Shown one piece after another: positions 13,409-64,000 of a stretch of DNA of 64,000 bases. A program made the position numbers and the translations under genes. A model generated the notes under the pieces. It worked only from the letters and a program-made list of their open reading frames with translations, was not told the origin of the DNA and made no database searches. How positions within the stretch are numbered: the stretch's first letter is position 1; the number at the start of each line of letters is the position of its first letter. The DNA comes from Parietichytrium sp. I65-24A (taxonomy: Eukaryota > Sar > Bigyra > Thraustochytrida > Thraustochytriidae): positions 558,001 to 622,000 of the forward strand of contig BLSF01000003.1 of assembly GCA_012862575.1 (NCBI GenBank). Reading direction: 5' to 3'.

Positions 13409-13851
13409 GCTTATGGAGCATGATTTCTGTTACACATCAAATACTTTTACTCTTTTTACACACCAACAATTGTCTGTCCAGATTTTTATGTCCTTTTTTT
13501 TTTCCTGGAAAACGAATAATGATGTACAATGTGTTTTCTTCCTCTTATTGCTTTCATCTCGTGAAGTTACGCTCTGCCGATCGTCCGCGTTCACGGTCAC
13601 TCGCTACGCTGCCAGCTCCGGAACACACTACCGGAACGCATTGCACACCTCAACTTGCGCGAACACGTTCATCATCGTTCATCCTGGGGGCATCTTAGAG
13701 CTACCCAGCCTCGCTGCTAGCATTCAGAAGATTGTCAAAACCACCTTTTGGGTCTTTTGGGTGAAAAGAAAATCATCATCCATCCAATCCATCCTCAAAG
13801 TCAAGTCGCGACTTTGTGGATGCAGAAGCCTTCGAAAAGAGTTTAAGCAGA
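13409..13851. other. Intergenic region
   Basis: Spacer of 443 bases between two same-strand genes. It has a short T run (about 13493-13503) in the probable SPB1 3' untranslated region. No gene is supported. Confidence 0.6.
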
Positions 13852-44916: not shown

Positions 44917-46494
44917 TCAAGTGAGAGCAGAAACGAGTGCGGCTGCCTCGGAGAGCTTGACAACCGTGAATTCGCACGCGCTAAGATTCTGCGGATTCGG
45001 ATCCAGAAAGCACATGGCATCGTCGAGCTGCACCCAACCAATCTGCGACAATACGTGGCGTGCTCCGAGAACAGAAGCTAAAAGATTGTGCACCTTTGTG
45101 TTGCTGAGCTTGAGTTTCTTGTACCTGTCACTGCTTGGGTCGCGAAGGACATTGCTGATAATCTTTATAAGGAGCTCAATCGCTCCCTGTGTCGTTTGAG
45201 GAGCATTTCTCTCGACCAGCTTTGACACCGCATCAGATATTTCAACTTGCATCGCTTCTGGCGGGGCTTCATAACGGACCTTAGTGTCAGAAGTCCGATG
45301 GGATTCTGCCTCCTCAATATTCGATGGCTCAGGAGCCTCACTCACAACTCCGACGGATAGATTGTCCCCCTCATGCCGTTGGGGATCACCACTCGATCTG
45401 GGCTCATCAGAGCCAAACTCCATCTGCTCAGATGTTGCGTTCTGCTCCCCAAGCTCGTTGGTGTCCATTTTTTCTGGCACGGAGGGAGGGTGGCAGGAGC
45501 AGTGATCCTTACACGGCTGTGCGTCAGAAATCTCGTCTTTGCGCGGATGCATCCGCGCCAGAGCAGCGGAAGCCAAGTGTGTGCGCATGTCTACTGAGTT
45601 ATCAACCTTTCCGCCAAGTTTGAAGACCTGTGGTTCCTTCTTCTCTGCGATGAAGTTTCGAGTTAGCATCTCAGTGCCTCCAAGACGGGAACCTTGCCCA
45701 CTTCTCCAATCCAGAGCGATAACGTCTTTCTGTATCTCGCGCATCAGCTCATAAAATTTATTGTCGTGTTCACTGTGCACCATATGCGAGAGCTCATGGC
45801 ACAATGTCTCCCTTATGGTCTGAATTTTTCGAAAGCCCCTCAAGTCGTCGGTTCGAATCCGCAACGAAATCTCCTGTCCCTTGTTAATGTTGACCCCGAG
45901 AACACAGACGGGGTCTACACCCACCTTTCCGTCCGGGTACATTTCTGTCAGAGCACCGACAGTCCATTTGTTCTTTCTTAGAACAGCGAGAAATCCGGGA
46001 TCAGTCGCAAGATCCTCAAGCAGCCTATGCGCCACTTCCTTGTCTCGGAATCCATTCAACGCTCTAATCGCGTTAAACTTGTATGGCGTTGAATCGGCAT
46101 CCCTCCTTCTCTGTTCCAAGTCACGACTCTTGGCAGCTGCGTCTCTTTCGTTTTGAAGCTCCTCATAATCGATGTCGATATCATTTCGGACCATCTTCCC
46201 GGCTTTGTCCGCTTCGCTCTCGGCGTTTGCCACAGCCTCAAGCTCTGCATCCGTAGCGCCGTATAACATGAGCGCATCGCCAGCTGCAAGGCCGCTTTTA
46301 AATCCCTCCTCATTCTCCACCCGCACGCCGCCCTTTGCCACTATCTTCTGCCTTGCTACCGCCACGCCTGTCCGTTCCTGGAGTGCAGCTTGGAGCTCTT
46401 CAAATGATCGCACTTGCAGCGACATCCGTTCGCCTCGAAAATTGACGCAAACGTCGTCGCAATTCCTGCCCACGGGCATTGCTCTCGACGTCAT
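44917..46494 (-). CDS. UBL-WLM-PUB metalloprotease (Wss1/SPRTN-related)
   Basis: A 525-residue protein. Residues about 10-85 form a ubiquitin-like domain (DDVCVNFRGERMSLQV, LQERTGVAVARQKIVAKGG, GLAAGDALMLYGA). A WLM (Wss1p-like metalloprotease) domain follows at about 130-310, with the zinc motif HELSHMVHSEHD (His233, Glu234, His237, His243) and the upstream YPDGKVGVDPVCVLGVNIN. After a disordered acidic stretch the C-terminus carries a PUB domain at about 440-520: AIELLIKIISNVLRDP, RYKKLKLSNTKVHNLLASVLGARHVLSQIGW. WLM proteases cut DNA-protein crosslinks; PUB domains bind the p97/CDC48 C-terminus, so a CDC48-linked repair or SUMO/ubiquitin role is likely. The frame opens at TTG 46653; ATG 46494 (or 46479) is chosen. 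Confidence 0.9.
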   Translation of the reverse strand: MTSRAMPVGRNCDDVCVNFRGERMSLQVRSFEELQAALQERTGVAVARQKIVAKGGVRVENEEGFKSGLAAGDALMLYGATDAELEAVANAESEADKAGKMVRNDIDIDYEELQNERDAAAKSRDLEQRRRDADSTPYKFNAIRALNGFRDKEVAHRLLEDLATDPGFLAVLRKNKWTVGALTEMYPDGKVGVDPVCVLGVNINKGQEISLRIRTDDLRGFRKIQTIRETLCHELSHMVHSEHDNKFYELMREIQKDVIALDWRSGQGSRLGGTEMLTRNFIAEKKEPQVFKLGGKVDNSVDMRTHLASAALARMHPRKDEISDAQPCKDHCSCHPPSVPEKMDTNELGEQNATSEQMEFGSDEPRSSGDPQRHEGDNLSVGVVSEAPEPSNIEEAESHRTSDTKVRYEAPPEAMQVEISDAVSKLVERNAPQTTQGAIELLIKIISNVLRDPSSDRYKKLKLSNTKVHNLLASVLGARHVLSQIGWVQLDDAMCFLDPNPQNLSACEFTVVKLSEAAALVSALT

Positions 46495-47367
46495 CTTTCG
46501 CCTGCCACTCAAACGCTCCCCAATAGGCCGCCACCACTGCTTGTCCACCAGCCGCGAGCAGCGCCAAAACGTCTCAGAACCTGACGCGACCTGGGTCTGC
46601 TGCCAGTTGCTGCAACTCAGAGCTACGCCACAGCCCTGGCCGGACCTGCCCAAAAAGGTCTTCGGGGCACCTTGAGTACTCTGGTTTGCAGAGCACTGAC
46701 AGTCTCTAAGCGCTTCAAAGCAAGCGGCTGTGTCGCCCGTATGGTGTAAAGGCTGCGAACGCTTCTGTCTATATTAAACGCTTGCGTTGCGTGTCTGCTC
46801 TGATGTTCTGATTCTGGTGTTCTGGAGTCGTCCTTGCAAGTCGCAAGTCGGAGTTTCTCCCAACACATTGCATCAAGAAGTCTTAAAATGCTAGGGCGGC
46901 TTTGCATTTCGGCTAACGAGGGAGTGAAGAGCTGGCTCGGAAAAGGGAATGTGGTTGACTGGGAGTGAATGAACGCTTCGGAGCTTCCGAGGTCGGGTTC
47001 ATAGTCAAGTGAGTGACATGTGAATTTTAGAAGGCGGGAGAGTTCCAAGAGCTGCAATTATGAAATGGATGCCTCGTTCTCGAGCCGGATTGACGCGCGA
47101 AAGAAAGTTGATCCCGATTCTTGTGTGGAGTGGGCTCGGGCGATCAAATATTTATCGCCGAGCGTTGGTTCCCGTGATATTTCCCACTACCGCGCCTGCG
47201 TTTTTTGGCAATGCTGGACGAGCTTGAGGGCCACAGCTGGGCGAGGATGTTACCATATCTCGTTTCTCGGCTTTCCAATCGGTCTTCCACGAGGTTCCAG
47301 CTCAAACGCGAGCAATTTTTCCCCAAGTCCACTTTGTCGTCGATAAGTAAAGACAAACTTTAGCTAT
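46495..47367. other. Intergenic region
   Basis: Spacer of about 870 bases between the WLM gene and the small membrane-protein gene on the same strand. Short open frames exist but show no family features. Nothing else recognised. Confidence 0.55.
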
Positions 47368-47892: not shown

Positions 47893-50800
47893 TTAATCAA
47901 TTTTTGTAATGGCCTGCGCAATCAATTTTCGCAAAGCCTCTGGCTGAATTGTTATCAGTGGTGGCTGATTGACATCTCTTTTTCGTCCCTGCTCCTGTAG
48001 CCACTTGATCCGACGCGTCTCAATGGCCTCGCAAAACTTTTCTTTGACCAAATCGCTCCAGTCGAGATTTCCTTCGAGCGCATGCTGCTTGAGCGCGTCC
48101 AGGTCCACCTCCGAGTTCTCTTTTTGAAGCAATGTATTCTGGTCGTCAAGAGGAATGCTGCTGTTTGACAACAAAAGGCCTGTCGCATAAGTAATACGGA
48201 ATGGGCCCGAGGGCGCCTTGTAAAGCGTCCTATCCGCGTCTTTCTTGATGTCCATGAGGTCCGCACTTTGTGCACGACCCTTGGCAAGCAGCCACAGCTT
48301 GCGCATCAGATTCTTCCACCCGGTCTGTATGTCATCTTCGAACTTCGCAACAACTTCGGCCACATCAGGACATTTTACAGGATCGAGTAACGGGGCCAAA
48401 AACCCGCGCCACAGAAAAGGAACGCGAGCTGCATTTTTTTTACCCCGCGCGATGAGCCACTTGGAGAGCCCGACCAGCAGGTTTGTCAGCGTACGCTGGC
48501 GAATTCCTAGGTCCTTTGCGCGAGTAGCACGCAAAGATGCGACGTTGTCAGGCGCCCAGGCTAATGCTTTGACAAGCTCGTCCCTCGGCACATATCGCTC
48601 GACCAGCTCCTTGACGTCGATCTGCTCCGTTTCGCACATGAGCAAGGTCCAAACAGCAGCCCGATAGGGACTGTTGTGTCCATGCGAGTCTGCGTCCTTC
48701 TCAAAGACACCACTGCTTAGAACATACTTGGCAAGCTTCAAGGCATCGTCTGACAACGCGCCTTGCATAAGGGCTACCAAATTTTCACGCTTCAACGCGA
48801 GTAGCACCGTGGCAGGGGACCTGCATGCAGACAGAAGCACCACAAACTCGTTAAGCGCCACCACTTCGTTTTGTCTCCATTCTTTCTCGTAGACATCAGC
48901 AAAGTTGATGCTGTGGCCCCGGCGCAGGGCATCGGACATACTTTTCAGCGACTCGTAGCTTCCGCCCCAACTAAAGGTAGGACATTTGCGGTCCGTGAGG
49001 CTCGCGCGGTCGCTCAGCTGATGAGGAAAGCCCACTTGATCAATGAAGAGAGTCTTGAATATCGTCTCCGCAGGAATCAAATCATTTAACGATGTATCCT
49101 TTCTACTTTCTGAGCGCATCATGCAGCACCATGCTGCAATTTTAATCGCAGGCGATAGACCGTTCGCGCCGCGCAGATCTCGCTCCACAAAATCCGGAAA
49201 GTCGCGGCCTACGTCGCTATCCCATGTCAACAAGGCGGCTTGAACCATCGCCCCAATGACGGTCTTGGTACTCTTGCCGACTGCACAAAGTAGCTTCAAG
49301 GCTAGGTCAGGAGTTGCTCGAGCATCAATGGAATGCGTGGACTCTGATAAAAGAGAGCAAAGCTTCTTTTCTGCAACCAGATACGCAGTGACAAATTCTT
49401 GTGCTGTCAGCGTCGAAAGGCGCGGCATTTTCTTGCAAAGAAGCTCTTCAAGCTGCGTTTCCTTATCGGGGGCCGCCAAGGCTTCGTCGACTGGAGTGAG
49501 AATTCGCAGCGAGATAGACTCCCCGCCAAAAAGTGCACGACTCAAGTGGAACCAGAGCTTGATTGATAAGGGCTTTTTCACACTTTCTTTGCGCCTACTG
49601 ATCACATCATTCAAAAGCTTGACTGGCAGTCTCGCATTCACCGCTTTGGCATCGAGCGGCTCCAAAAGACTGTCATCACTTGCATCTTTGCGGTTCGCAA
49701 TGAGCAAGACATACAAACGACTTTGCTGGCCTGCAAGCCACGCAAAAAGTTCTCGCTTATGTGCACCGGACAGCATGTGATACTCATCGACCACTAAGAA
49801 CATGCGCCCTCCTTCTTCCGGAACCTTGCGTGTCAGCACCGACGCCAATGCGGTATCCACGAGCTCGTCGTCTGAGCCATCGACATAGGCAAAGCCTAAG
49901 GAAAATTCCTTCTTCAGCTCCTTGCCAAGCTCGTCCGAGAAATGGCTTTTTCCGGCGCCAGGAGGAGAGACAAGTAATACAATCTTGGGGTTTGGTTGCT
50001 TCAAAAGGGACCGCATCTGATCTCTGTAGTCGTCGCTGCCTCGCGACTCTTGTGTTGTCCCGTCTTGCGCAAGCCAGCTCGACTCCTCTGCCGACGCGCC
50101 TAGCTCGATGCGTATTCCCTGCTTTTCCGCTGATGCCGCTGACGTGTCTCCCTGCAAAAAGTCGATCACCACGGTTTCATCGTTCGATAGCATTTCCTTG
50201 CTGCTTCCTTGCAATTGCGAATTTGAGAGCAAAGCTGTCCTGAGTGCTTTTTCAAGACCAATCCAGTCCTTGGACGCCGAAAAAATCGTGTCCACGAGCT
50301 TCTCATCCACGTCAAACTCGTGCACTGGGCGATTTGCTCGGAGTTGCGCCCGCTGCAGATCCTTTCTGCTTGTCAGAAGTCGCGATGCAGCCATGGGAGC
50401 TCGCGTCAGCACGCATCGGTCACGATTCTCGCCAAAGTTCCAAGAGGTGTCGCACTCCTCGAGGTAGACGAATCGCCACGGGTGGTGCTTTGTGTACTCT
50501 GCAATCCACTTGAGCAACTGGTCACTCACCGTTGGCAAACCGCGCACCCATACAAGCCAGGTGAACTCTGAAAAGCACCCAATGATGCGCAGGTACATGG
50601 ACGCATCATCGCGAGCGTTGATGAGGCTATCGTGGCCCAGGTCGCATTCGACGGGGACGACCCCATGTCGCTCAAGAGTATCCCACTCCTGACGCCGGAC
50701 CACGTGCACGCCATACATATCATTCTTGCGTTTGATGAATTTACGCATGCCCGACGTGATCGTGTACACACGCGTCAGCTGCTCGCGCACCGGCTCCTCA

Positions 50801-53800
50801 CGAGGCATCGCGGCCGCTACGCAGTTTGCGATAGCAAGAAGATTGATGTCTTCGTTCTTACTCACATCTTCGTCCATATTCAAGCTGGCTCCGTGGCGCG
50901 TGAGCGCCGGAGCCGTGCTCGAAGGAGCGCCATGCTCAAGCGTGGCCATCATGAAGCGCTTGACACTCACTGGAAGCGGGCTTCGCGCAAGTTTTCCAAG
51001 CCAGTCGAGCAAGCTATCGCGATGACTCATGGCTTCATGTGGCTTGCAAGCTTGTAGAGCTCTGGCGAGGAGCCTCTCATGGAAGATGTAGGCAATGGGG
51101 AGTCCATGCGCATCAGAATACTGCAGCTTGAGTTGCCGTGTGTCAAGTGGGCAAAAGTAAAGACGGCGCCTAGGCTCACTGCCATGCAAGATCCACACGG
51201 TGCGATTGGAGTCTCGCATTTCGCCGTAGCCGCCATCTTCATACTTAAAGAGATTGCTGCTTTTGACCTCACTCGCCTCCACCTCCCCACAAGCATCGTC
51301 GTCTTGCGAGGCACCAGCACTGCTGATCATCTTGCAAGCCTCCTCAACCCGCTGGCGGGCACCTCCGTCATCCCCGTCTCCCGCCTGCATTAATGTAATT
51401 GACCGATGTTTCGGGTGGCCGACGTCATCTTCGTCATCGCTGTCCTCGCAATCCTCCGTGAAGACCCGACTTCCTGAAAGGTTGTAATTTTTGTCAAACT
51501 CTTCGAAGAGCTGCAGCCCGATGCTGCGGAACTTGTGCTTGGCGATTTGCGCATGTATCGCTATGAGTTTGTTCTTCAGTGTAGAGTCTGGTGCAGGCTT
51601 GCCACTGGATAAGTTGAGATTGTGCTGGACTAGCTGAAGGGCAAAGTACAGCTGCGAGCGGGCCTCGTGGTCGGTGGTGGTCATGATTACAGTTAGCGCC
51701 TTCGTCAGGCGGTCCTGAATCGCCGGAGAAGCCATTTCGAGCTTCTTGGCAATTCGAGGCACAATCGTGTGATCTCCAGCCTTTTCGCGAACCTCATTCA
51801 TCTGCTGTAGCATCCATGTGACATGTCGGAGCTCAGCCTCTTTGTAGCTGGTGTAAGGCCCATCCTGGCTCCTTTGATCATCAACACTGTCTGCATTGCC
51901 GTCGTTCGAACCATCATCGTCTTCTTCGTCTTCAACTTCGTTCTCAATTGTGTTTACGTTTTGCATACCATTCCCGATCCTCTGCCTATGCCTGCTACCT
52001 TCTTCACGCTGAAGGGCTTTGATCGCCTTGATGGTCTTCTCGAACGAGTCTGGCACTTCCTTCTGGGGCACGCAAGCCCTAAAAGCGACTTGCACAATGC
52101 ACTCAAGAACAGCAACAACCTCACCATGAAAATTGAAGGCTGCAAGACGATGGTTTTCCAAGATCGTGTGCAAGAATAGCTGTGGGCGGTCTACCTCTTC
52201 ATTGCGCGATGTTGCCATTAGCATCACCCACGTGCCTTGCTGTGTCTTACGAAGATAAAAACCCCGCCCGAGAATGGTTGAGTTATTCGGCAGCTCTTGA
52301 AGAAGTTCCCAGGTCTCGCCGTTATTTGCAAAGACGTGGGAGATTTCTGCTCCCGCGCCAAGGTCTCCGTCGAACGAGAACGGGCTGTGACGTACGTAGC
52401 GCACAATGTCTTCGTCCTCCTGGTCCTCCGGTTTTCGCAACACAGGATGTAGACCCGGAGCAACCTCCAAAATACCGTACGAGGGCTCGCTTCTAACGCG
52501 CAAAAGTGTCCGCGCCGAGACCAGGCTCGGCCCACGGCTCCCCGATCGGTCACCCGCCTTCTGGAGAGAGAGTGCAGTGCTTAAAGCAAGCTGGTCATCC
52601 TCCATATCCTGAGATGACTGCATCATACTCGGACCCGTCAACACTTTATCTGACTCCCTCACTTCTTCGTCCCGTGGCATTGATGATGTTTGAGAGTCTG
52701 TAATAGCCTTGACTACCTTCGCGGGCCCTGCTTTGACAGCTGAGAGGCCGCTTCTGTACGGAAGAATCTTTCCGACAAGGCAAACGTCGTAGAGATCGTG
52801 CAGCTTTGATCCCCGATCTTCTCCATGTCGGCCCTTAATGTCATTCATCTGAAGCACCTTCTCAAGACTTTTCATAAAGTTGTCACCGACGAAAGTACCC
52901 ACTGTCTTTGTCGCATCCAGCTTTCGCGGTACACCTTTCGTACTTAAGCCCTCGACCTTCAAGGCCAGCTCCTGCACATTCTTGTCAAGATCATCGTCTT
53001 TGTCTTTGAACACATTACAGCTCATCCATTTGATCTCTGCTTTGCAGGTCATTGACATAAACGTTGGCTTGCCGTCTCCACTCCATTCGAATGAGTCAAA
53101 GGCGCAGATCATCTGCTTGACCGTCTCGCCATCCGTTAGAGGTGTCAATCCCAACACAATAAAAAGGCCATCGACGATTTCTGGAAGGTGATCGCGCCCC
53201 TTTTGCGTCGAGTTTAGCCCCTGAGCAAGGGACGTGAAGGCTGCTTCGGAATACCTTTTTTTGGTGCGGAGTCCAAGAAGAAATCCTCCTATCATGCGCA
53301 ACTTTTCCCACTCCACAGTTTGGGCATCCGCAAAATAGCAACCGATTTGCAGGAACAAATCCTGCACAATAGAGATGTGTTCCTCCTCGCTACTCGCTTC
53401 TTGAGTCCGCTGTGCAAGAGCACTCCCGCTTCCACCTCCTTTAGATGGCGTCTCAAAGGTGTCTGCGAGCAGAAAGACTTGCTGCATCGTGATTGCTTTC
53501 GAAAGTTTGTCGAAAAGAGAGTCTGCTGCACCACCCATCTCGTCCACGAACCGACTGTCCAGAATGACTGGTAATGGACAAAGTACATATTTAACGTGGG
53601 CAACTTTGCTAACTTTTTGTAGTTCTTGAACCACAGCGATGAGCTTCTTTGCATCGCCTACACCACCTGCACGAGCAATCAGACGAGCTAGTTCTTCCGG
53701 CTCGACTCCGGCCTGCACGAACCATGCCAACAGACAGAGGCCAGTATGAAGACGTACATTAAATTTGTCGCTGTAAATAGTCTCCGTTGCGCTTTGCAAG

Positions 53801-56800
53801 TGGACGAGAAGGCGCAGATTGTGTTCAACCGTTCCCACTGAGAAACCTTCCTGGACGCGAGGAAATCCGAGCTTCTTTGTCCACACAGTGGGTGCGAAAA
53901 GCGATCGATTCATGATCTTGCTGAAAACATGCTCGATGCACTCCGTCGGGAGGACACGTCCAGGCTCCACTCGAAGCGCATAAACCGGAAATGCGCCGCC
54001 ATTTTGCTGGGCCAGTACCAGAGAGGTTGAAACAAAGGATGACCTTGTTTTGGACCCCCGGAAGCGTGACACTAAACTGTTGAGATATTCGCCAGAGAGT
54101 GTATGAGGCATGAAGACAAAGGTAGCAAGTAGTGAGAGCGGCTCTGTGCTTGCTTCGCAGGCGTCACGAAGAATATTGTCACGTACAACGCACGCGAAAT
54201 CGTGCCACTGCTCTTCCCCAGCAGGAAGCAGTGCATGAGGAAGATTATAAACCGGGTTCGCGGCCCATGCAAACCACGCGAGCACAAGCAATGCCCTCGA
54301 AGGTTTACCTTGATCCTCGTCGCTCCAGGATCGCGTTAATGCGGTGAGAAGAGATTCACGTGCTTGCGTTGAGAAGAATCGAGCGTGATCTGACTTCATC
54401 CTTTCGACTTCGAATGTGTCTGTTTTTCGGGCATTATGCTCAACATAGAGTCGCAATAGTTCTGGCGACACAACGAGCTCCAGATCGTGCTCAAATTGCA
54501 GCTCCTCGAAAGCGAAGCTGTTGCGCGCAACAGAAAGCATCGAGAATTTGTACACGGATGCTTCGATATCGCTCAAAAACTCCTCCAGAACACTTGAGAC
54601 AGTCTTGTTGTTGGAAATTGTTTCGGTACGCAGAATTGAGCACACGCGAAGACAGACGTTCAAGCGATCCCAATCAGTAATAGCTTTTATCTCGATGGGC
54701 GCAATCGCTTTAACAAGTCTGAGAATGTACCACTCTTGCGCACTGACCCCTTCAATAACCCCATTTTGCGCAAGGAGCGATTGCAGCACATGCTCGCGAA
54801 CGAAACGAGGAAATGAGACCTCGTTCTCCTTGTTCGGATGACTCGCGGCGCCACGAACAAGGATCTCGGCCATTGCAGCTGGTGAGAGCCGTTGATGCCA
54901 ATCTGGTTTCGAGCGAAGACGTGAAAGACGGTCCCAGAGGCTGTCTGCCGTGCTTCCTGTCGCCCACATGACCAGAGGCTCGAGCCGCGAATGGAGTATC
55001 TCAGCTGCATTGGCGAGCTTCTCGCGCCATGAAGAGTGCAGACACAAACGCAGAAGTGCGGCACCCATGACGAGATTTTTGTTGCTTCGTAGCACCTGTT
55101 CTACCATGCGACGATCTCCCTCGGATGAGGCAAGTAGAACTTCCGCCACCTTGGGCTGCTGCAAGAGAGCAGTTGCAGGGTCATCAATCTGCACAAGATT
55201 CAAAATGAGGCGCTTTTCGAGAACACGATCTCCCTCAGTTCCAGACTTGAAGTCAAAGTGCAGGTCCGACCGTAGAAAGTCTTGAATGAGACTTGAAAAG
55301 TCATCCCTTGAATTTTGGACTGTGGCCGCGCTCGGGCGAGCTGCCTGGTGCTTGAGAATGGACCAGGCCAGCGCCGCGACTCTGTGTTGCAGTTCTGCCG
55401 CAACGCGCGTGGCCGTCTCCTCTTGATTCGGCCCAGTCACGGCGTCACGCATCGCATCGAGGTCTTGGCTCATTCGCTCGACGACTAAATCTGGCAACGG
55501 CAGAGAAGCCAAACGGGTCTTGCTGAGCGAGAGCGCCAGCAAAAGCCGCGAAGGCGCCTCTTGCAACAAGTGCAGAAGAACAGGCGTGGGAATCTCCGGT
55601 GTTCGAGCCCAGCTGCGATAGACATCATTCCAATGCAGGTCTCCGCCACGAATCGCGGTCTGTTCGATGATATCGCTCAACGGCGTCATTGCATCTCCTC
55701 TGCCTGGATCCACATAGTAGATTTCTCGAAATGCGGATTTCGCGGGGTCGGCGTCTTGGCGCGCAATCAACGGGCTACAGAGAATTTCTCCTGGATTGTC
55801 TGTGCGACTAATATTCAGACTGCCCTCCAAAGCACACTTGGGCAGGATCTTGTCTTTATCCTCCAAGCACGCGATGAGAGCCCACACTCGCAAAGCCTGC
55901 GGCGCTAAAAACATGACTGGGTCATTCGCAATATCAGCAAAGTGTATCATCTTTGTGACGTCTTCAAGGTTCTCAACATATGTCCATAGGGCGCTTGCGA
56001 CAACATCTCCGAGAAGTTCAGTTCCGGATCCATTGAAGGTGCTGTCGGGTTCGTCGTCGGACGCCAATGTCCGCAACATGCGCTGGAGCAGGGCCGGCTG
56101 CGGAGAAAGTCGCAGAGCGAACTCACTAAGAAACGGAGGAACGCTGGTTGAGTCGCTGTCCTTGAGGAATGCCGAGAGTGACTGTAAATTGGGTGTGTCC
56201 GAAGTAAGATCGAGGTGTGGGCCGAGAAGGACCCTGAGTCCGAGGATAACACGGTATAGTGGCTGCTGGCTCTGAGAAGGAAGGCGCGCCCGCGCGTGGA
56301 AGATGTCAACATGCTCGAATTTGGTGACACCTTCAATTGACGTTGTCTGGAACGTTGTAAGGTCGCGCGTTGCAGCGTTCACGACCAAAAGTAAAGGCTT
56401 GCGACATCTCGCGCAGTGCGAGGCAATAACGTGGAGTCGATCGCGCACCAGTAGCTGAGCGTGCAGGAGCACGAGGACCACTCGCTCTTCTTCGCTTTCA
56501 GTCACGTTCAATGACAAGAGTCCACGGAGCTTCTCGATGCAGCGTGGGTCTCGAGCGTTGAGGAAATCAAGCCTCGAAAATTTCTCCGTAAGTGTTGAGG
56601 TGAGGGCCTCTGCATCCTCCGTTATGATTACGCGAGTATTTTTCCGCACCGAGCATTCGGTGTTGTCTTCCTCGAGCAGCGAGTTGTGGACGGCTTCCAT
56701 CCAGTTTCTCGCCTGCTCCACTCGACAGCGAATTCTTTCCATGGTCTGCTGGGCAAAGCTTGGAGATTCAATGAGCTTGCGAGAAACGTTGCGCAGAAGG

Positions 56801-59781
56801 CCATCGTACACAGTGTGACGCTCTGTCTGAATGACTGGACTCACGTCTTTGGCACGCTCGGACACCATCTCGTGGAGAAAGACCCGAGGACGAATGTCGG
56901 CCGACAAGCGGTTGTAAAGCGCCATGAGCCCTTTGGTGAAGTAGAAAATGAGCTTGACGCAGCGGCTTTCGGACGCGACACCTAGCAATTTCTCGAGCAT
57001 CCCACTGTTGGTGCGCCCGGTAAGGCGCACAAAGTAGAATGAAGTGACAGACATCTCGGCGCGGCGAGAAAGTCGATCGACAATGCTCCAAAAGTTGCTG
57101 GGCTCTACGTCAAGGTCCTCACAAGAGAACTTAGTTCGCGTGCTCAGCAGCTCGTGAAGGTGGCCCCACATGTCATCGGTGGCCAGCACTGCGGTTGCGG
57201 GTGTGCCAGAGGATCGGCCCGTGATGAGGGCCAGAGCTGCGTCCCGCGCCGCAAGCTCCTCAGGCCCCATGGCATCGTGTGGCGTTAGAGTCGACTCCCA
57301 AACCTCGTGCACTGGACCCCTGAACAACTCTGGCGAGACAGAAACCAGCGAGGTCACCGACATGCAATTGAGAACGAGCTGGTTTGCTTTGAGCTTCTCA
57401 AAGACAATTTCCGTCGGAGGCACCGCGTCGTTTCTCTCTTTGACGCTAATGAAGATGGAGAGGACTTGCGCAAGCGTTTCGGCCGTCTCAACATATGCAG
57501 TCTTGGCATAGCGTTGCAAAAGCCCTGCGAGCTCGTGTCGTTCAGACAACGTGCTGTCAAAATCGAGATACGTGGCTGGCAAGAGTATGAGGTAGCGACG
57601 AAAGCTGAGATTGTCTTGTTCCGGTGCAACGCTGCTGCGCGGCAGCACAGCCAAGGATGGGAGATGCATGCCTTCGACATCTACCTTGCCAGGGTGCGCC
57701 AACGAAATGAGAAATCGGCGCTCGCAGCTCTCTTCGAGCGACCGATAGGCGCCTTTCTCCTTGCTACGCACATCGTCATCCTTGGATGGTGTTGCGTCCA
57801 TTTCAAGGAGAATGTGCGTAAAATAGTGAGCGTGCACGTTCGGTGACGTGCTTTGCGGCTGCGCTCCGTCGCGGAGATCGTGAGAGTTACCACCGCCTGC
57901 GAGGGATCTCACCATGGCGTCTTCGTGTCTTCCTCTGGAATTGGGGCTCGGCGATCGCGGCCTATTCGCATCAGTCGCCTGACTTCCGGGGCCAACGTTC
58001 TCGTGTTGAGAGCGTCTTGTGCGCCCCGCTAATTGCGGAGGCTCTGCAAGAACGCGCTCGAGAGGAGACGAATCAGCCGCATGCACTCCTGAGGGGATAA
58101 ACTCATAAAATACCAGAGTATCGCGCTCTTCACGGATCGGGAGGACGGAGTTGAAGATTTTGTCGCGAGCGCCATCGCAGAACTCATCAGGAATTCGCGA
58201 GTAAAGACCGTCGAGACGGGCCCCAACCTCAATGATTTTATCGCCGGCATTGTTCTTGGACACACTCAGACAGCGCGAAACAAAGGGTGCTTCGCTGCCT
58301 GAAGCAAGGTAGGCATCCGGATCATTGCTAGCACGGTAGCCGATGACTAGGATGACGCGCTCAGCTTCGCCGTCTGCTTGATCACGCGTCTCAATTTGTG
58401 GGTCTCGTGCGGCAATCAAACACGAGCTCAGCATAGATGCTTCGAGGAGGTCCATGAGACGCTGCTTCTTGGAGCAGTACTGGCGCAGCTTTGGCGTAAA
58501 GGTATCTTTGCTTGTGCCTTCTTCCATGGCCAGTTTTTCATCCTCGCGATTAGCAAGAAGATTGAAGATATCCGGCTCACCAGAGTTGGGGATGATCGCC
58601 TCACCATAGTCGGGGAACATCGCCTTCAAGAAGGCATCGACCCTCGGTCGTGTTTTCTGGAACCACTCTTTCTCCTCTTCGACGAGATCGAGGCGTCGCC
58701 TTAAAGAAAGCGCACCCTTTCCGCCTCGCATGTTGCCTCGGTGCCACTTGTCCAGAGATGTGAGTTCCGCTCGAGGGTTTGGGTCGACAAAAATGACCTC
58801 ATTGTCGTTTTCCTGGGTTTGAGAAATGCTGCGCCTTAGCGCGTCAAGGAAGACACGCTTGTTGCGCTGGAGCTTCTCTATCGTTGCGTCAAGGAGATGT
58901 CTCACCGACTCATCTCGATGTTCGGGATCTTCGTCAAGCCTGCGCAGAATGTCCCGAAGACATTTTTTAGTCTGCGCATCGAGATCCTTACGAAGCTCTG
59001 AGTTGCAAAAAGCGCGAAGGATAGCGCTAAGCTCTGCATTGTCGTAAAAGCGTAGGCGCATGAAGTGGATAATGAAGCCAAAGTCCTCCTCGTCTTGGAG
59101 TCGGTGCAGCAGCTCGTCCGGCTTGCAACCTCGCAAGTCTTCAAGGAGGCTGGAAAGCTCATTACGTTCACCGAGCTTATTGATGAAACGTACGATTCTT
59201 GATCCCGGCTTGCCGACAGCGACCTCCAGCATACTCGCGAGATTGTCTTGGTCGACAACGCACTCATACCGACTTCCGTTGAGTTGTCTTGCCACAATTT
59301 TCCCACCAAGCCAACGGAGACACTCATATCCAATCAGGCCGCGGCCTCCCAGGCCCAACCACGTGTAGCGCTTGAGCTTGCTTAGCGCTGAAACTGGCTC
59401 AAAGACGAGATCTTCATAGTCCACATCGCGCAATTTGTTGCTCCAACGGTCAAGCCTCTCTTCCCAAGTAGGAATGGTCCTCGCGCCGTCTTCGTGCATA
59501 ATCTCGTTGTGCCATTCGTCAATTGTTTCAAAAGAAATGTCATTCGCAACATTTGACTCATAGGTTCCATGCGACTGTGTCACTTCCGCCCCCTTGCGCT
59601 CCTCTTGCTCCTCGAGATGATCTATCTCGTGCTCCTCTTCAACGCGTGCAGTTTCGTCAAGATTTCCACGATCTCCAGATTCAACGTGAGCATCGTTTAA
59701 CCCGGCGTGAAGGCCCGGGTTTTCATCTTCTATTTCTTCACTAAGCAGTGCTCGCGCGTCCTCAAACCTGTTTCCCGACAT
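47893..59781 (-). CDS. Giant single-exon protein with AAA-type ATPase near C-terminus, unknown family
   Basis: An uninterrupted frame of 3,962 residues (about 440 kDa) from ATG 59781; the frame opens at GTG 59904. The N-terminal 100 residues are acidic and Glu-rich. Residues of about 100-2,300 look like helical solenoid without recognised domains. A ubiquitin-interacting-motif-like segment (MEDDQLALSTALSLQ) lies at about 2393, and acidic linkers occur near 2,580-2,620 and 2,770. Near 3,272 is a Walker A motif, LLVSPPGAGKSHFSDELGKEL; near 3,327 a Walker B, MFLVVDEYHML, followed by a sensor-1-like LYVLLIANR. This is a single AAA/P-loop ATPase, with about 550 further helical residues. No RING, kinase or membrane span is seen. 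Overall shape recalls RNF213/mysterin (giant, AAA, ubiquitin link), but the RING is missing and only one P-loop is evident, so I do not assign it. Confidence 0.88.
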   Translation of the reverse strand: MSGNRFEDARALLSEEIEDENPGLHAGLNDAHVESGDRGNLDETARVEEEHEIDHLEEQEERKGAEVTQSHGTYESNVANDISFETIDEWHNEIMHEDGARTIPTWEERLDRWSNKLRDVDYEDLVFEPVSALSKLKRYTWLGLGGRGLIGYECLRWLGGKIVARQLNGSRYECVVDQDNLASMLEVAVGKPGSRIVRFINKLGERNELSSLLEDLRGCKPDELLHRLQDEEDFGFIIHFMRLRFYDNAELSAILRAFCNSELRKDLDAQTKKCLRDILRRLDEDPEHRDESVRHLLDATIEKLQRNKRVFLDALRRSISQTQENDNEVIFVDPNPRAELTSLDKWHRGNMRGGKGALSLRRRLDLVEEEKEWFQKTRPRVDAFLKAMFPDYGEAIIPNSGEPDIFNLLANREDEKLAMEEGTSKDTFTPKLRQYCSKKQRLMDLLEASMLSSCLIAARDPQIETRDQADGEAERVILVIGYRASNDPDAYLASGSEAPFVSRCLSVSKNNAGDKIIEVGARLDGLYSRIPDEFCDGARDKIFNSVLPIREERDTLVFYEFIPSGVHAADSSPLERVLAEPPQLAGRTRRSQHENVGPGSQATDANRPRSPSPNSRGRHEDAMVRSLAGGGNSHDLRDGAQPQSTSPNVHAHYFTHILLEMDATPSKDDDVRSKEKGAYRSLEESCERRFLISLAHPGKVDVEGMHLPSLAVLPRSSVAPEQDNLSFRRYLILLPATYLDFDSTLSERHELAGLLQRYAKTAYVETAETLAQVLSIFISVKERNDAVPPTEIVFEKLKANQLVLNCMSVTSLVSVSPELFRGPVHEVWESTLTPHDAMGPEELAARDAALALITGRSSGTPATAVLATDDMWGHLHELLSTRTKFSCEDLDVEPSNFWSIVDRLSRRAEMSVTSFYFVRLTGRTNSGMLEKLLGVASESRCVKLIFYFTKGLMALYNRLSADIRPRVFLHEMVSERAKDVSPVIQTERHTVYDGLLRNVSRKLIESPSFAQQTMERIRCRVEQARNWMEAVHNSLLEEDNTECSVRKNTRVIITEDAEALTSTLTEKFSRLDFLNARDPRCIEKLRGLLSLNVTESEEERVVLVLLHAQLLVRDRLHVIASHCARCRKPLLLVVNAATRDLTTFQTTSIEGVTKFEHVDIFHARARLPSQSQQPLYRVILGLRVLLGPHLDLTSDTPNLQSLSAFLKDSDSTSVPPFLSEFALRLSPQPALLQRMLRTLASDDEPDSTFNGSGTELLGDVVASALWTYVENLEDVTKMIHFADIANDPVMFLAPQALRVWALIACLEDKDKILPKCALEGSLNISRTDNPGEILCSPLIARQDADPAKSAFREIYYVDPGRGDAMTPLSDIIEQTAIRGGDLHWNDVYRSWARTPEIPTPVLLHLLQEAPSRLLLALSLSKTRLASLPLPDLVVERMSQDLDAMRDAVTGPNQEETATRVAAELQHRVAALAWSILKHQAARPSAATVQNSRDDFSSLIQDFLRSDLHFDFKSGTEGDRVLEKRLILNLVQIDDPATALLQQPKVAEVLLASSEGDRRMVEQVLRSNKNLVMGAALLRLCLHSSWREKLANAAEILHSRLEPLVMWATGSTADSLWDRLSRLRSKPDWHQRLSPAAMAEILVRGAASHPNKENEVSFPRFVREHVLQSLLAQNGVIEGVSAQEWYILRLVKAIAPIEIKAITDWDRLNVCLRVCSILRTETISNNKTVSSVLEEFLSDIEASVYKFSMLSVARNSFAFEELQFEHDLELVVSPELLRLYVEHNARKTDTFEVERMKSDHARFFSTQARESLLTALTRSWSDEDQGKPSRALLVLAWFAWAANPVYNLPHALLPAGEEQWHDFACVVRDNILRDACEASTEPLSLLATFVFMPHTLSGEYLNSLVSRFRGSKTRSSFVSTSLVLAQQNGGAFPVYALRVEPGRVLPTECIEHVFSKIMNRSLFAPTVWTKKLGFPRVQEGFSVGTVEHNLRLLVHLQSATETIYSDKFNVRLHTGLCLLAWFVQAGVEPEELARLIARAGGVGDAKKLIAVVQELQKVSKVAHVKYVLCPLPVILDSRFVDEMGGAADSLFDKLSKAITMQQVFLLADTFETPSKGGGSGSALAQRTQEASSEEEHISIVQDLFLQIGCYFADAQTVEWEKLRMIGGFLLGLRTKKRYSEAAFTSLAQGLNSTQKGRDHLPEIVDGLFIVLGLTPLTDGETVKQMICAFDSFEWSGDGKPTFMSMTCKAEIKWMSCNVFKDKDDDLDKNVQELALKVEGLSTKGVPRKLDATKTVGTFVGDNFMKSLEKVLQMNDIKGRHGEDRGSKLHDLYDVCLVGKILPYRSGLSAVKAGPAKVVKAITDSQTSSMPRDEEVRESDKVLTGPSMMQSSQDMEDDQLALSTALSLQKAGDRSGSRGPSLVSARTLLRVRSEPSYGILEVAPGLHPVLRKPEDQEDEDIVRYVRHSPFSFDGDLGAGAEISHVFANNGETWELLQELPNNSTILGRGFYLRKTQQGTWVMLMATSRNEEVDRPQLFLHTILENHRLAAFNFHGEVVAVLECIVQVAFRACVPQKEVPDSFEKTIKAIKALQREEGSRHRQRIGNGMQNVNTIENEVEDEEDDDGSNDGNADSVDDQRSQDGPYTSYKEAELRHVTWMLQQMNEVREKAGDHTIVPRIAKKLEMASPAIQDRLTKALTVIMTTTDHEARSQLYFALQLVQHNLNLSSGKPAPDSTLKNKLIAIHAQIAKHKFRSIGLQLFEEFDKNYNLSGSRVFTEDCEDSDDEDDVGHPKHRSITLMQAGDGDDGGARQRVEEACKMISSAGASQDDDACGEVEASEVKSSNLFKYEDGGYGEMRDSNRTVWILHGSEPRRRLYFCPLDTRQLKLQYSDAHGLPIAYIFHERLLARALQACKPHEAMSHRDSLLDWLGKLARSPLPVSVKRFMMATLEHGAPSSTAPALTRHGASLNMDEDVSKNEDINLLAIANCVAAAMPREEPVREQLTRVYTITSGMRKFIKRKNDMYGVHVVRRQEWDTLERHGVVPVECDLGHDSLINARDDASMYLRIIGCFSEFTWLVWVRGLPTVSDQLLKWIAEYTKHHPWRFVYLEECDTSWNFGENRDRCVLTRAPMAASRLLTSRKDLQRAQLRANRPVHEFDVDEKLVDTIFSASKDWIGLEKALRTALLSNSQLQGSSKEMLSNDETVVIDFLQGDTSAASAEKQGIRIELGASAEESSWLAQDGTTQESRGSDDYRDQMRSLLKQPNPKIVLLVSPPGAGKSHFSDELGKELKKEFSLGFAYVDGSDDELVDTALASVLTRKVPEEGGRMFLVVDEYHMLSGAHKRELFAWLAGQQSRLYVLLIANRKDASDDSLLEPLDAKAVNARLPVKLLNDVISRRKESVKKPLSIKLWFHLSRALFGGESISLRILTPVDEALAAPDKETQLEELLCKKMPRLSTLTAQEFVTAYLVAEKKLCSLLSESTHSIDARATPDLALKLLCAVGKSTKTVIGAMVQAALLTWDSDVGRDFPDFVERDLRGANGLSPAIKIAAWCCMMRSESRKDTSLNDLIPAETIFKTLFIDQVGFPHQLSDRASLTDRKCPTFSWGGSYESLKSMSDALRRGHSINFADVYEKEWRQNEVVALNEFVVLLSACRSPATVLLALKRENLVALMQGALSDDALKLAKYVLSSGVFEKDADSHGHNSPYRAAVWTLLMCETEQIDVKELVERYVPRDELVKALAWAPDNVASLRATRAKDLGIRQRTLTNLLVGLSKWLIARGKKNAARVPFLWRGFLAPLLDPVKCPDVAEVVAKFEDDIQTGWKNLMRKLWLLAKGRAQSADLMDIKKDADRTLYKAPSGPFRITYATGLLLSNSSIPLDDQNTLLQKENSEVDLDALKQHALEGNLDWSDLVKEKFCEAIETRRIKWLQEQGRKRDVNQPPLITIQPEALRKLIAQAITKID

Positions 59782-60113
59782 GGTGGGCCTCAAGGAGAAA
59801 TCGCTGATCGTCACTTCTCGCTCGTTCTCTCGCCAAGCCTCGCTTCGGTGAGCACAATTCTTCGCCCTGCCGCGCTCGGCATTTGGGTTTGCTTTATCTG
59901 TCACTCGCGTTGCTCATTTCCTAGTGGCGCGGTTTCGTGAAAACGAAGGACCACGCAGTCTCTTTGATCTTTGATTTGCTTCTTAACCCTTCCCCTTCCA
60001 GTGGAGTGGGCTAGTACTAATACTAACGGGGGCTATCTAGTCTAGAGAGATAGCTGTTTGTGTTAATACTATTTTGATTGACTGACAATGATTACAGTGC
60101 GAATGCAGCAGAG

Positions 60114-60162
60114 GCGAACGACAGTGAGCACAGCTGTACCCCCTGCCATAGTGGGGGTGGTG
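60114..60162. repeat. Hairpin repeat, copy 1
   Basis: GCGAACGACAGTGAGCACAG is followed by ACCCCC-TGCCATAGT-GGGGGT and GGT. The C and G runs pair as a six-base stem. It shares the 5' arm with copy 2 and the stem-loop with copy 3. Confidence 0.7.
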
Positions 60163-60268
60163 TGAATGAAGCATAATAATTTTGTACTCGGGTACGGTGG
60201 TATGTATTCGTTGATACTCAGTACATCTCAGTACAGGTACACAGTCAGTTGAAGCGAAGTCAGTTGAA

Positions 60269-60313
60269 GCGAACGACAGTAAGCAGGTGTACACCCTTGC
60301 GTAGTGGGGTGGT
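60269..60313. repeat. Hairpin repeat, copy 2
   Basis: GCGAACGACAGTAAGCAGGT, then ACACCCTTGCGTAGTGGGGTGGT. Close to copy 1 in the 5' arm, with a weaker stem (CCC/GGG). Confidence 0.65.
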
Positions 60314-60840
60314 AAGATTGTGAGATTGGGGGGGTTAAATGACCATCGACGACCCCAAATGACAATTGCCTACAATAGCTGCCATTTCAAACACACATAC
60401 TCGACACATTCATCTTTCTATGGTACCGGTATGCGTATGCAGATCATAACTTTAACTGTCAATGTTCTGAAACAGTTGCAGAAACCGAGTTCAACGTGCG
60501 CAATTTCAAAAGGACTTGGAATGACCTCTTCGCGCCCGTGGTCACCGTCGATGAAAGATCAACGGGCATTACCACTCTTGTCGCTCACTTCAAGGGTGTT
60601 CAAGGCACTAACATAAGCCTTCGTTGGGCATGATTGATTCTGACAAGACTCTTGCTAACTACTGACTGTCACACCTCGAGGCGGACAGCGACGCGCATTC
60701 ATGATATGCCTACTACACAAATCCAATCCATTCAACAGCTGGAGGAGAAATCGAGTTCATCCGCGTTTTGGAAATGCTTGCCAGTGGAATGACACCTCTG
60801 ACCATCCTCGGTCTCCGTTTCCGAAAGATTTGAAAGATTT

Positions 60841-60893
60841 ACGATGATTGACAATGATTGACAATGATTGACAATGATTGACAATGATTGACA
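60841..60893. repeat. 10-bp tandem repeat ACAATGATTG
   Basis: Five perfect ten-base units in the spacer between the giant genes, the first with one change (ACGATGATTG). Confidence 0.92.
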
Positions 60894-61371
60894 GGTTGGT
60901 CTGTCACTACCACCACTACCGCTTCCCCAGACACGTATAACTGGTTGAACGACATGCCAGTACGGTGACGGCAAGCGAAGCCGTTGGTTGAAAAGAGCTT
61001 TGAAGCGTGACCGTTGGACATCGCTACTGAGTACTCAAAAAATCGCGATTTCCAACGACAACATGTACTCACAGTCAGTACCCTCTTCTCTGGTTTCACA
61101 CATCAGTAGTTCCGGTGATCATTGAAAATGCCATGCCATGCAGTGATATGCAGTGCGTACTGTGCCTACTGAGCACTGAGTGTACGACGATCCCAGGAAC
61201 TAACAGTAAGTACCGGTACTCACAGTGAGTACTCACTGTATCTCACTTTCAGCTTTTCACGAAGAGAGAGATAAGAAGAGTTGGGGTCTTAGCTTATGAT
61301 ACTCAGTACACACTCGTACCTCAGCGTCCCAGCAGAGTGACGTGAGAACGATGAGGAGAGTGTGCAGTGGT

Positions 61372-61406
61372 GTGAGCAGCTGTAGCCCCTGCCAAAGTGG
61401 GGTGGT
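61372..61406. repeat. Hairpin repeat, copy 3
   Basis: GTGAGCAGCTGTAGCCCC-TGCCAAAGT-GGGGTGGT, with a four-base C/G stem and the same loop as copy 1 apart from one base. It ends about 190 bases before the large gene at 61596. Confidence 0.65.
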
Positions 61407-61595
61407 AACTCAGAATCGCAAGACAAAAGCATCAACGAACAAAGGGAAAAAGTGCTTTCTCGCGGGACTTGCACGACTTGGCAGGCTGCTGGAAGTGAAC
61501 TGAGCGCGTATGCGGAAGCGCGCAACCACGTGCGAAAGCCATTCTCCTCGGTTGCGCGCTGGGCAGACGAGGCAGAAAAGGATCGCCCGTGAACC

Positions 61596-64000
61596 ATGGT
61601 CTGGATAGTCTTCCGCGTGCCCGACGCAATCAAGGAGCGCACGGTCGACGTCAAGTCGAAGCACGAAAACTTTGAGGAAAACAAGAACGTGGAGGTGACA
61701 CATCATGGGGTCCTCGTGGTGGCCAAGGTGACGATGGCGAAGCCCGAACAAGGGATTTTCAAGAAAGTCACGTCATATATCTTTGGTTCTTCAGAAGAAC
61801 TCATCGAGGTTTCTGTCATGATCCGAGACGAAACTTTCAACACTTTAAAAGTACCCTTGAAGAGCTTAGACGTGTCAAATCATGGCTTGATCTGCTTTGT
61901 TGGTGACTGTCATCTCGAAGAGTATCTTCATTGCGTAAATTTCGTTGCGATGAAAGAGGGAGAAAATCCGCTTGAAATTTTCAATGTGTACGAGGGGATA
62001 TTAGGCGAGAATCAAGGAAAGGTGTCGGAAGTTTTAGCGAATTACGGCAAGTGGACGAATGTTTTGCCTTGGGGCCTCAACACCGCTTCGGACCATGCAC
62101 GTGCATCAGTAGCCCTTAATAAAATTGAATGGACAGAGGCCGCTCGAACCCATCTTTCGTGTCTCATTACCAAATTGAGCGAGGTGCAGACTGTTGACCA
62201 CGATTTGGAGAAGATTCTCAGTGAGTCAACACCGTGGCATCTGATGTGTAACAAACTCTTGGTCGCCTTATTTAAGGATATCTTCGAGGATCCAAATTGG
62301 GGCGAAGAGAGTCCGAGTGCCGAAAATTCCCCACAAGCCGTTGATGAGGCCATCAAGATTGCGTGCTCTATTCGCCATCTGGCAACGAGCCGCAATTGGG
62401 ATTCTCGTCGTTATTCTTCGGGCGACATTGTGTATGGAGCTTTGCTTTCTGTCACCCTACCTCCGGCCAAGATGGAGGCTCTTGAGCTGCCACGCTTGGA
62501 CACTAATCAAATTCAAACTGCCAAACAACTTGAGGAGCAGATAGCAGCTCTTTCTACCCCAGCTAGATGCAGTTTTCGCTCCTGGATGCAGAAGGCGGTG
62601 GCCCAGTCGACGCCGCTGAACGAAGCGCTCGCCAGCTGCCTGAGGTTTTTCGAAGAAAATGAGGACACGCTACGTCTGATGCGTGTAGGCTTCGTCATGC
62701 AACGTTGGAGAGAGCAACGTCATGATTACGGGTTTTTTGAGGCGTTTGTCGCAGCTGAAATTCGAGAGGAACAAGCGCAATACGTTGCGCCCCTCGTCTT
62801 CCATGTTGCAATCGATGAGTTGGAGACGGAGAAGCTCCTTCTCATTGCTATCGGACCCCTTCTAGCACCGACCTCCCAATATTGCCCCAACCCATCCTCG
62901 AAGATTGCTACGCAAATGCTCCGCCAAAATGAAGCACAAACATTCCTTTCAGCCCTGGAAAGCTTGCGTTCAAACGCTAGAAGGCGTTTGCTCAAAGGTG
63001 TTGACTGGAAGCAGGCATATCAGGATGTGAAGAACTTGGAAGCGTCTATCATTCCTGTTCTTCTGGCGCTAGGTCGGAACTTTCGGGATATCAGCAATGA
63101 GGACTATATTCGCTTCGTTTGCGCTGTCCTGATTCAACGTCCCCGCGAAACCCATGCAATGGTCAAGCTTCCTAATCTTCCAGTGGAGTCCGCTAGTCGA
63201 TCTAGGGAGCTGCTTTCCGAGATCAATCTGCGGTCTGAGATCAATCTTCAAATCAGAATCTGCCGCAACTTGAGCAAAGCACGACTTGGACAAATTCCCC
63301 TGAAAGTGCTCTTTTGGCCATTGAGAGCGCATTCCAGAAAGAAAGTCGGCCCTTGGACCACGTAACCGAATGGTGTAAATATTGGGCCGGAGTCGACAGT
63401 TCTACAGAGGTCGTCTCTGGAGGGGTCAAGGTTTACGCAATCGTCGCAGAGCATTTTGAGAAGTCAGCTTTGCAGCGAGGCGCCGATCTCGTACTGGAAG
63501 GCATAGGAATGCTCAATGAGCGAGGCGAGCGTATGAAGGCACTTCAAGCGTACGTCAATTCGAGCCTAAGGGCCTACATCAGTGAGGAAGTGCTAGAAAG
63601 CCTCTCGGAGCGTTTGGGGACCTACACACAAAAGTTGACGACCTTCCCGAACAAAAACTCTGAGGCACGCGCGCTAAAGGATCTCAAGGCGTTCGAACGG
63701 CACGACGGAGCTGCTGCCGCAGACTCTGTCTGGTTTCATCATGCCGCTGCTCACATCGCTTCCCAGCAAGCAGAGAACTTGCGTACTGTAGATGATTTGT
63801 ATAATCTTGTGGCAAATTCTCTTGTTAAAGCGCGCGACAACGTCGTCAAAGCCTTGGAAGAGAGAAAAAGCTCGTGCACAGTGCTCGACCTGATCTTGAA
63901 GACTAGTGTCGACAAGGAGATAAAGGCCCTTCGCGCGTTACTTGCGTTGAGTCCCGACGGCGCAGCATTGGGCCCTGACCTGAGTGCGGACGACGGAAAG
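61596..64000 (+). CDS. Large protein of unknown family, 5' part, with one frame break
   Basis: Starts at an ideal ATG (GAACCATGG) and reads for about 568 residues in one frame. Coding sense then passes to the -1 frame at a CCCC run (63297-63300) and stays open to the window end for another 230 residues or so. No GT-AG intron bridges the change. A one-base error in the C run is the simplest cause; a recent lesion or programmed slip are alternatives. The N-terminal part (about 1-120) looks beta-rich; the rest is helical (VEASIIPVLLALGRN-like segments, SWMQKAVAQSTPLNEAL). I recognise no domain. It is divergent from the giant gene and of similar style, so the two may work together or be distant relatives, including the RNF213-like N-terminal arm as a weak possibility. 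Confidence 0.7.

Follow-up and report, generated by a model that had tools for sequence, protein, structure and literature searches.

RNF213 (mysterin), a giant AAA+ E3 ligase of vertebrates, is investigated for its role in immunity and as the principal risk gene for moyamoya disease. The structure paper states that all vertebrates express it and that its conservation is high (PMC7311170). According to two mechanistic reports, ATP binding to the AAA units AAA3 and AAA4 activates the E3, and ubiquitin is transferred via a Cys/His pair of the RZ finger, the RING being largely dispensable (PMC12075652, PMC11549300); one of them describes a partial effect of the RING at the Toxoplasma vacuole (PMC11549300). 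The RNA helicase ZNFX1 is reported to have the RZ finger in common with RNF213 (PMC12075652). A literature search for RNF213 in labyrinthulomycetes gave no paper on this subject among the matches listed, and with unicellular, choanoflagellate or stramenopile terms none of the matches listed named RNF213. The locus described here adds a protein of the RNF213 type with an RZ finger and no detected RING, in what is probably a stramenopile, next to a giant that is as yet unclassified.

The locus was analysed in a 64,000 nt stretch of contig C3 (C3:558001-622000, referred to as the window); the whole genome comprises 42.5 Mb in 172 contigs. Two giant genes are encoded here on opposite strands, divergently oriented and 1.8 kb apart (intergenic region 59782..61595). 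The first, termed gA, is located on the minus strand at 47893..59781. A stretch of 4,006 codons is open between 59913 and the stop codon at 47893, and the first ATG at 59781 leaves 3,962 codons, which agrees with the single uninterrupted frame of about 3,960 codons and 11.9 kb reported by the first-pass annotation. The second gene, referred to as the neighbour, starts at 61596 on the plus strand and extends beyond the window. We favour the reading that the two form a head-to-head pair in which an orphan giant AAA+ protein partners an RZ-type E3, and give this a probability of about 0.4.

The neighbour is almost certainly RNF213-like. Its AAA3, AAA4 and RZ finger are all located beyond the window end, in the second of its two frames, to which the residue numbers refer. 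AAA3 contains the motifs GDTGTGKT at 1082 and AILDEV at 1154 and matches Pfam AAA_16 with an E-value of 1.1e-5, a match that falls short of the cut-off of that profile. The AAA4 region matches PDB sequences with E-values from 7e-4 to 7e-3, and all nine listed matches are RNF213. Counted from the sequence, the Walker residues are K1088 and E1158 for AAA3 and K1397 and E1476 for AAA4. The RZ finger (Pfam E-value 5.6e-10; C3:629837) is the lone RZ match in the genome; its matches in the PDB are weak (E 0.22-0.25), and the five listed sequences are all RNF213. C2880 and H2901 align with the catalytic residues Cys4462 and His4483 of mouse RNF213 (numbering, also for the metal ligand His4455, as given in PMC12075652). 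Of the four metal ligands all but one are conserved; at the position of mouse His4455 there is a tyrosine. An extra cysteine is found three residues after the first Cys of the finger and two before this tyrosine, and judged from the alignment it may replace the missing histidine ligand.

The neighbour thus has AAA3 and AAA4 with Walker motifs, AAA4 sequence and the RZ Cys/His pair in the same order as RNF213 and with similar spacing. The distance between the Walker A motifs of AAA3 and AAA4 is 309 residues (349 in mouse RNF213), that from AAA4 to the catalytic Cys 1,483 (1,726 in mouse) and that from the catalytic Cys to the C terminus 664 (686 in mouse); the mouse spacings were taken from the residue numbers in PMC12075652 and the length in PMC7311170. 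It differs from RNF213 in that no RING was found, neither with Pfam (E≤0.5) nor with a Cys/His pattern, whose lone match is the RZ finger itself. The neighbour is about 240 residues shorter from AAA4 to the RZ finger, the interval that holds the RING in the mouse protein (residues 3940-3999 according to PMC7311170). The CBM20 domain, which in RNF213 is near the N terminus, was likewise without a Pfam match, although divergence could hide it. From ZNFX1 the neighbour differs by its RNF213-type AAA units; its only helicase-like Pfam match is ResIII with an E-value of 0.13. A paralogue of the AAA3-AAA4 region was not found elsewhere in the genome, the one further match (E 0.14) containing stops.

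The first frame of the neighbour (61596..63365, plus strand) comprises 589 codons from an ATG at 61596. By itself it matches neither RNF213 nor any other PDB entry, and it is taken as the 5′ part of the gene because it leads into the second frame. The latter starts at 63239 (63239..64000 in the window, plus strand) and continues 9,873 bases past the window to C3:631873, giving 3,544 codons in all. The frames overlap by 127 bases. As far as about 63265 codon usage supports the first frame, and from about 63385 onwards the second; in the intervening stretch neither scores well. The frame change is located at 63183-63410 (plus strand), and a 74-base GT-AG stretch at 63183-63256 is consistent with an intron; the change may equally well be due to an intron or to an indel.

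Searches of gA against Pfam, NCBIfam, PHROGs, PADLOC and the PDB recognised one part, an AAA+ module some 125 residues long and close to the C-terminal end (residues 3248-3373; 49663..50040, minus strand); the first-pass annotation had likewise seen no other known domain. Motif searches located Walker A (PPGAGKSH) at residues 3273-3280 (49942..49965) and Walker B (VVDEYH) at residues 3330-3335 (49777..49794), both on the minus strand; both motifs had been named by the first-pass annotation, Walker A at about residue 3,272. A sensor-1-like strand, LLIANR, with a sensor-1-like Asn follows at residues 3359-3364 (49690..49707, minus strand), and the low-confidence model of this region has a strand there. 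About 3,270 residues are located upstream of Walker A and 690 downstream. With Walker A, Walker B and sensor 1 the module contains the motifs of an AAA+ protein, the fold being seen in a weak model only, and we infer from these motifs that gA is an AAA+ protein with ATPase activity.

The slice of residues 3150-3480 matches Pfam AAA_16 with an E-value of 8.8e-5 (23.5 bits; cut-off 32.6) and Pfam AAA with 4.3e-4 (21.2 bits, equal to the cut-off of 21.2). A PHROG profile for the clamp-loader AAA+ protein gave 1.8e-7 with the whole of gA and 1.4e-8 with the AAA slice, and the profile of a novel STAND NTPase matches the module weakly (E 0.02). Since AAA3 of the neighbour scores against the clamp-loader profile too (6.7e-5), the match of gA indicates AAA+ only, and identity as a clamp loader was rejected. 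Like AAA+ ATPases of the clamp-loader/AAA_16 type, residues 3248-3373 contain Walker A, Walker B and the sensor-1-like Asn in the usual order; in gA, however, they form one small module within a protein of 3,962 residues. The Ser-Arg-Cys motif, which is the arginine finger of clamp loaders, is absent from gA as judged by eye.

The first-pass annotation had also described a motif resembling a ubiquitin-interacting motif (UIM) at about residue 2,393. The stretch is indeed present (EDDQLALSTALSLQ, residues 2394-2407; 52561..52602, minus strand), but the slice containing it has no Pfam UIM match with E≤10, and a strict UIM pattern has no match in gA. A looser pattern matches the stretch and turns up 0.26 times per shuffled protein; for a narrower one the figure is 0.008, but this pattern was fitted to the stretch itself. 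It is thus a weak likeness and probably not a true UIM, and a ubiquitin link of gA rests more on the adjacent RNF213-like gene than on this motif.

The collections searched for relatives of gA contain prokaryotes, phages and viruses. None was found in the viral contig collection with six short peptide patterns, and in the genome contig collection 16 stretches matched a pattern, none of which was confirmed; as these scans rest on six short peptides each, they detect close relatives only. A scan of the viral contigs with six such patterns from codons 1-2,253 of the second frame of the neighbour, which again detects close relatives only, was also negative. The C-terminal half of gA has no phage relatives, and its AAA slice matched 24 phage records with a best E-value of 0.4. 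In its own genome gA has no paralogue. The one other match (E 0.3) is located on contig C42 in a frame of 752 codons with P-loop-like motifs; it was rejected as a relative of gA, and by its appearance we take it to resemble a VWA8-type protein. Four minor matches, to NCBIfam IstB (0.056), PADLOC mad8 (0.014), Pfam E7 (0.0047, with a slice of gA) and a PDB tailspike (0.07), were taken as chance or plain P-loop matches. Apart from its AAA+ module, gA is thus an orphan giant in the prokaryotes, phages and viruses searched, and because of this composition its orphan status is uninformative about other protists.

Single-sequence models of two parts of gA, 331 and 261 residues long, were poor (pLDDT 46.7 and 38.2). 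The second one, which covers residues 2985-3245, shows an alternating order of strands and helices; this region could be a degenerate AAA unit, on which we do not rely. In a Foldseek search with the weak first model clamp loaders rank first, with TM-scores of about 0.2 in those rows, and RNF213 is absent from the best 50 of 1,467 rows.

Whether the two giants belong together was judged from their size and position. In a sample of 248 kb of C3 (1-148000 and 548001-648000, the latter 100 kb chosen around gA) we counted 85 non-overlapping ATG frames of at least 200 codons, and gA and the neighbour are the only two that reach at least 2,000 codons. Outside these 100 kb, in the remaining 148 kb, all 54 frames are shorter than 2,000 codons. 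The sample is small, and therefore the inference of linkage is modest. The adjacency suggests that gA and the RNF213-like gene work together; since adjacency in one genome may be due to chance, a functional partnership as such is proposed tentatively. The explanation that competes most strongly, and which we regard as quite possible though short of even odds, is that gA is an unrelated signalling NTPase, a STAND-like or clamp-loader-like AAA+ protein with a long scaffold, and that the neighbour is adjacent by chance. The families that match the AAA module best (AAA_16, AAA, phage clamp loader and, weakly, STAND NTPase) fit this explanation, as does the order of the Foldseek rows obtained with the weak model. 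However, the clamp-loader profile does not separate gA from AAA3 of the neighbour, and it is less likely that the only two frames in the sample with more than 2,000 codons are neighbours by chance.

The region between the two giants contains copies of a dispersed repeat. Its core, CAGCTGTANCCCCTGCCANAGTGGGG, is found at window positions 60131, 60284 (degenerate) and 61377 (plus strand). Genome-wide there are 98 matches with at most three mismatches (54 forward, 44 reverse), and the reversed control has none; a further copy at C3:1688-1730 has about 45 bases in common. This 26-base element upstream of both giants was considered as a common promoter element and rejected owing to its 98 genome matches: being dispersed over the genome, it is no sign of co-regulation. 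The intergenic region also contains a tandem array at 60823-60892 with about five copies of the 10-base unit AATGATTGAC. On the other side of gA, the next long frame downstream on the same strand encodes a protein with WLM and PUB domains (window 44917-46653, minus strand), presumably a Wss1-like protease, whose PUB domain we take to be a link to p97.

The proposal of the first-pass annotation that gA is a divergent RNF213 relative without RING was not borne out. A phmmer search of the PDB with gA gave no match to the solved RNF213 chains at E≤10; the only matches are three tailspike chains with E-values from 0.07 to 0.13. Comparison of gA with both frames of the neighbour gave a best blastp E-value of 1.1 and a best hhalign probability of 0.7%. 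No RZ finger was found in gA, the genome's one RZ match being in the neighbour, and a pattern search revealed no Cys/His cluster. The absence of a RING, noted earlier, was confirmed with Pfam and a Cys/His pattern. One Walker A/B pair was recognised in gA, whereas RNF213 has AAA3 and AAA4 about 350 residues apart. Finally, the AAA module of gA is out of place: at this distance from the C terminus, 690 residues, RNF213 has its ligase end instead. The only traits that gA detectably shares with RNF213 are its size and an AAA+ module. Since the tests on the PDB, the neighbour, RZ, RING, number of AAA units and position are all negative, gA is not to be filed under RNF213: by sequence it is outside this family, and very probably it is not collinear with RNF213, although at the level of fold it may still be a remote relative. 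An RNF213 relative without RING does fit the adjoining gene, which is RNF213-like and has an RZ finger and in which no RING was found. The other proposal made for gA, a new class of giant ATPase that is perhaps linked to ubiquitin, survives insofar as gA is an orphan beyond its AAA+ module; for its ubiquitin part the adjacent RNF213-like gene now counts more than the UIM-like motif.

Two further explanations would nevertheless derive gA from RNF213. It could be an extremely diverged paralogue that arose by inverted tandem duplication of the neighbour, followed by loss of the RZ finger and most AAA signatures. The back-to-back position and similar length of the two giants (3,962 versus about 4,090 codons, with the overlap of the neighbour's frames counted once) would agree with such an origin, and so would the presence of AAA+ modules in both and the lack of a detected RING in either. 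We consider it improbable, as gA shows no similarity to either frame of the neighbour and no match to RNF213 in the PDB at E≤10, has no RZ-type cysteine cluster, and carries its AAA module in the C-terminal region that in RNF213 is the ligase end. Alternatively, the two genes could be the halves of a split RNF213, gA supplying the N-terminal region together with one of the early AAA units and the neighbour everything else. Although the genes are adjacent and divergent and the AAA unit is located near the end of gA, AAA3 of the neighbour is already preceded by about 1,630 residues (the two frames together, without counting their overlap twice), compared with 1,912 modelled in mouse (475 to 2387), so that little is missing from the neighbour, and the roughly 3,270 residues before Walker A of gA exceed the stretch before AAA3 of RNF213; a split is thus very improbable.

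gA is a genuine coding gene, as follows from the length and the codon usage of its frame. With the local base composition, the chance of an open frame of this length is about 10^-79. Codon usage was scored with a table built from nine other genes, whose own scores range from 0.011 to 0.344. The gA frame scores +0.133 bits per codon, the other five frames -0.17 to +0.03, and it is the best of the six in 13 of 14 stretches of at most 300 codons each, the lone exception being residues 901-1200 (0.080 versus 0.095). The concern raised earlier that the frame might be an artefact, or that it is not expressed as a single protein, can draw on the lack of detected relatives and on gA being known from DNA alone, but given its length and its coding-like codon usage it is hardly credible.

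The description of gA as intron-free is correct in that the DNA shows no interruption. This is not exceptional here, because other long frames in the window are likewise uninterrupted, for example those of Spb1 (967 codons) and of a protein of 1,936 codons that combines RCC1 repeats with a RasGAP domain (window 17156-22966, minus strand). A comparison of gA with itself by blastp revealed no internal repeat, and hydropathy indicated no clear membrane helix (highest mean over 19 residues: 1.65). In the window, Rfam gave nothing at gathering scores and ARAGORN found no tRNA.

Elsewhere in the genome, COX1 was located on the mitochondrial contig C141, which is 39.3 kb long and has a G+C content of 28%, calculated over all letters including withheld ones. 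Ten chosen frames of this contig (minus strand, mostly named by eye) contain, from the first ATG to the end, 214 TTG, 119 CTT and 63 CTA codons and four TTA codons. Two of the four TTA are in a cytochrome b-like frame before the second ATG, which by eye is likely the true start, and a third is located ten codons before the end of this frame; the fourth is in the COX1 frame, past the point where the likeness to COX1 ends. The lone TGA of the ten frames also lies in the cytochrome b-like frame, ahead of its second ATG. Frames outside the chosen ten do hold TTA codons: four and six are present at 577-1287 and 13621-14745, two frames that have TGA as well, and some others contain one or two. Genes so poor in TTA in such an AT-rich mitochondrial genome are typical of NCBI table 23, the code of Thraustochytrium mitochondria, from which we conclude that the host is probably a labyrinthulomycete, and thus a stramenopile. 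A nad7-like start and a 189-codon frame each occur twice on C141; these repeated stretches are perhaps real or misassembled.

Returning to the favoured head-to-head pair, we envisage that gA and the RNF213-like protein would be made together and, judged from adjacency and size, might act in one pathway. The RNF213-like protein would serve as an ATP-gated, RZ-type ubiquitin ligase: the neighbour keeps AAA3/AAA4 and the RZ Cys/His pair, the parts that the model of the RNF213 mechanism uses. gA might act as a scaffold or adaptor driven by ATP, which recruits targets or prepares them. The more far-reaching proposal, that labyrinthulomycetes have a two-giant ubiquitin machine, in which one divergent locus encodes both an RZ-only ligase of the RNF213 type and a giant AAA+ protein dedicated to it, is unlikely at present. 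If it were true, RNF213 would be an ancient ligase of cell-autonomous defence or quality control with the RZ finger as its original catalytic part, and in some lineages it would work with a second giant ATPase. A stramenopile protein with AAA units and the RZ pair and no RING would naturally support the view that the RING is largely dispensable (PMC12075652, PMC11549300). The RNF213-like gene would offer a single-celled system for asking what the first role of RNF213 was, and the orphan gA would be a testable candidate partner that vertebrate studies would miss.
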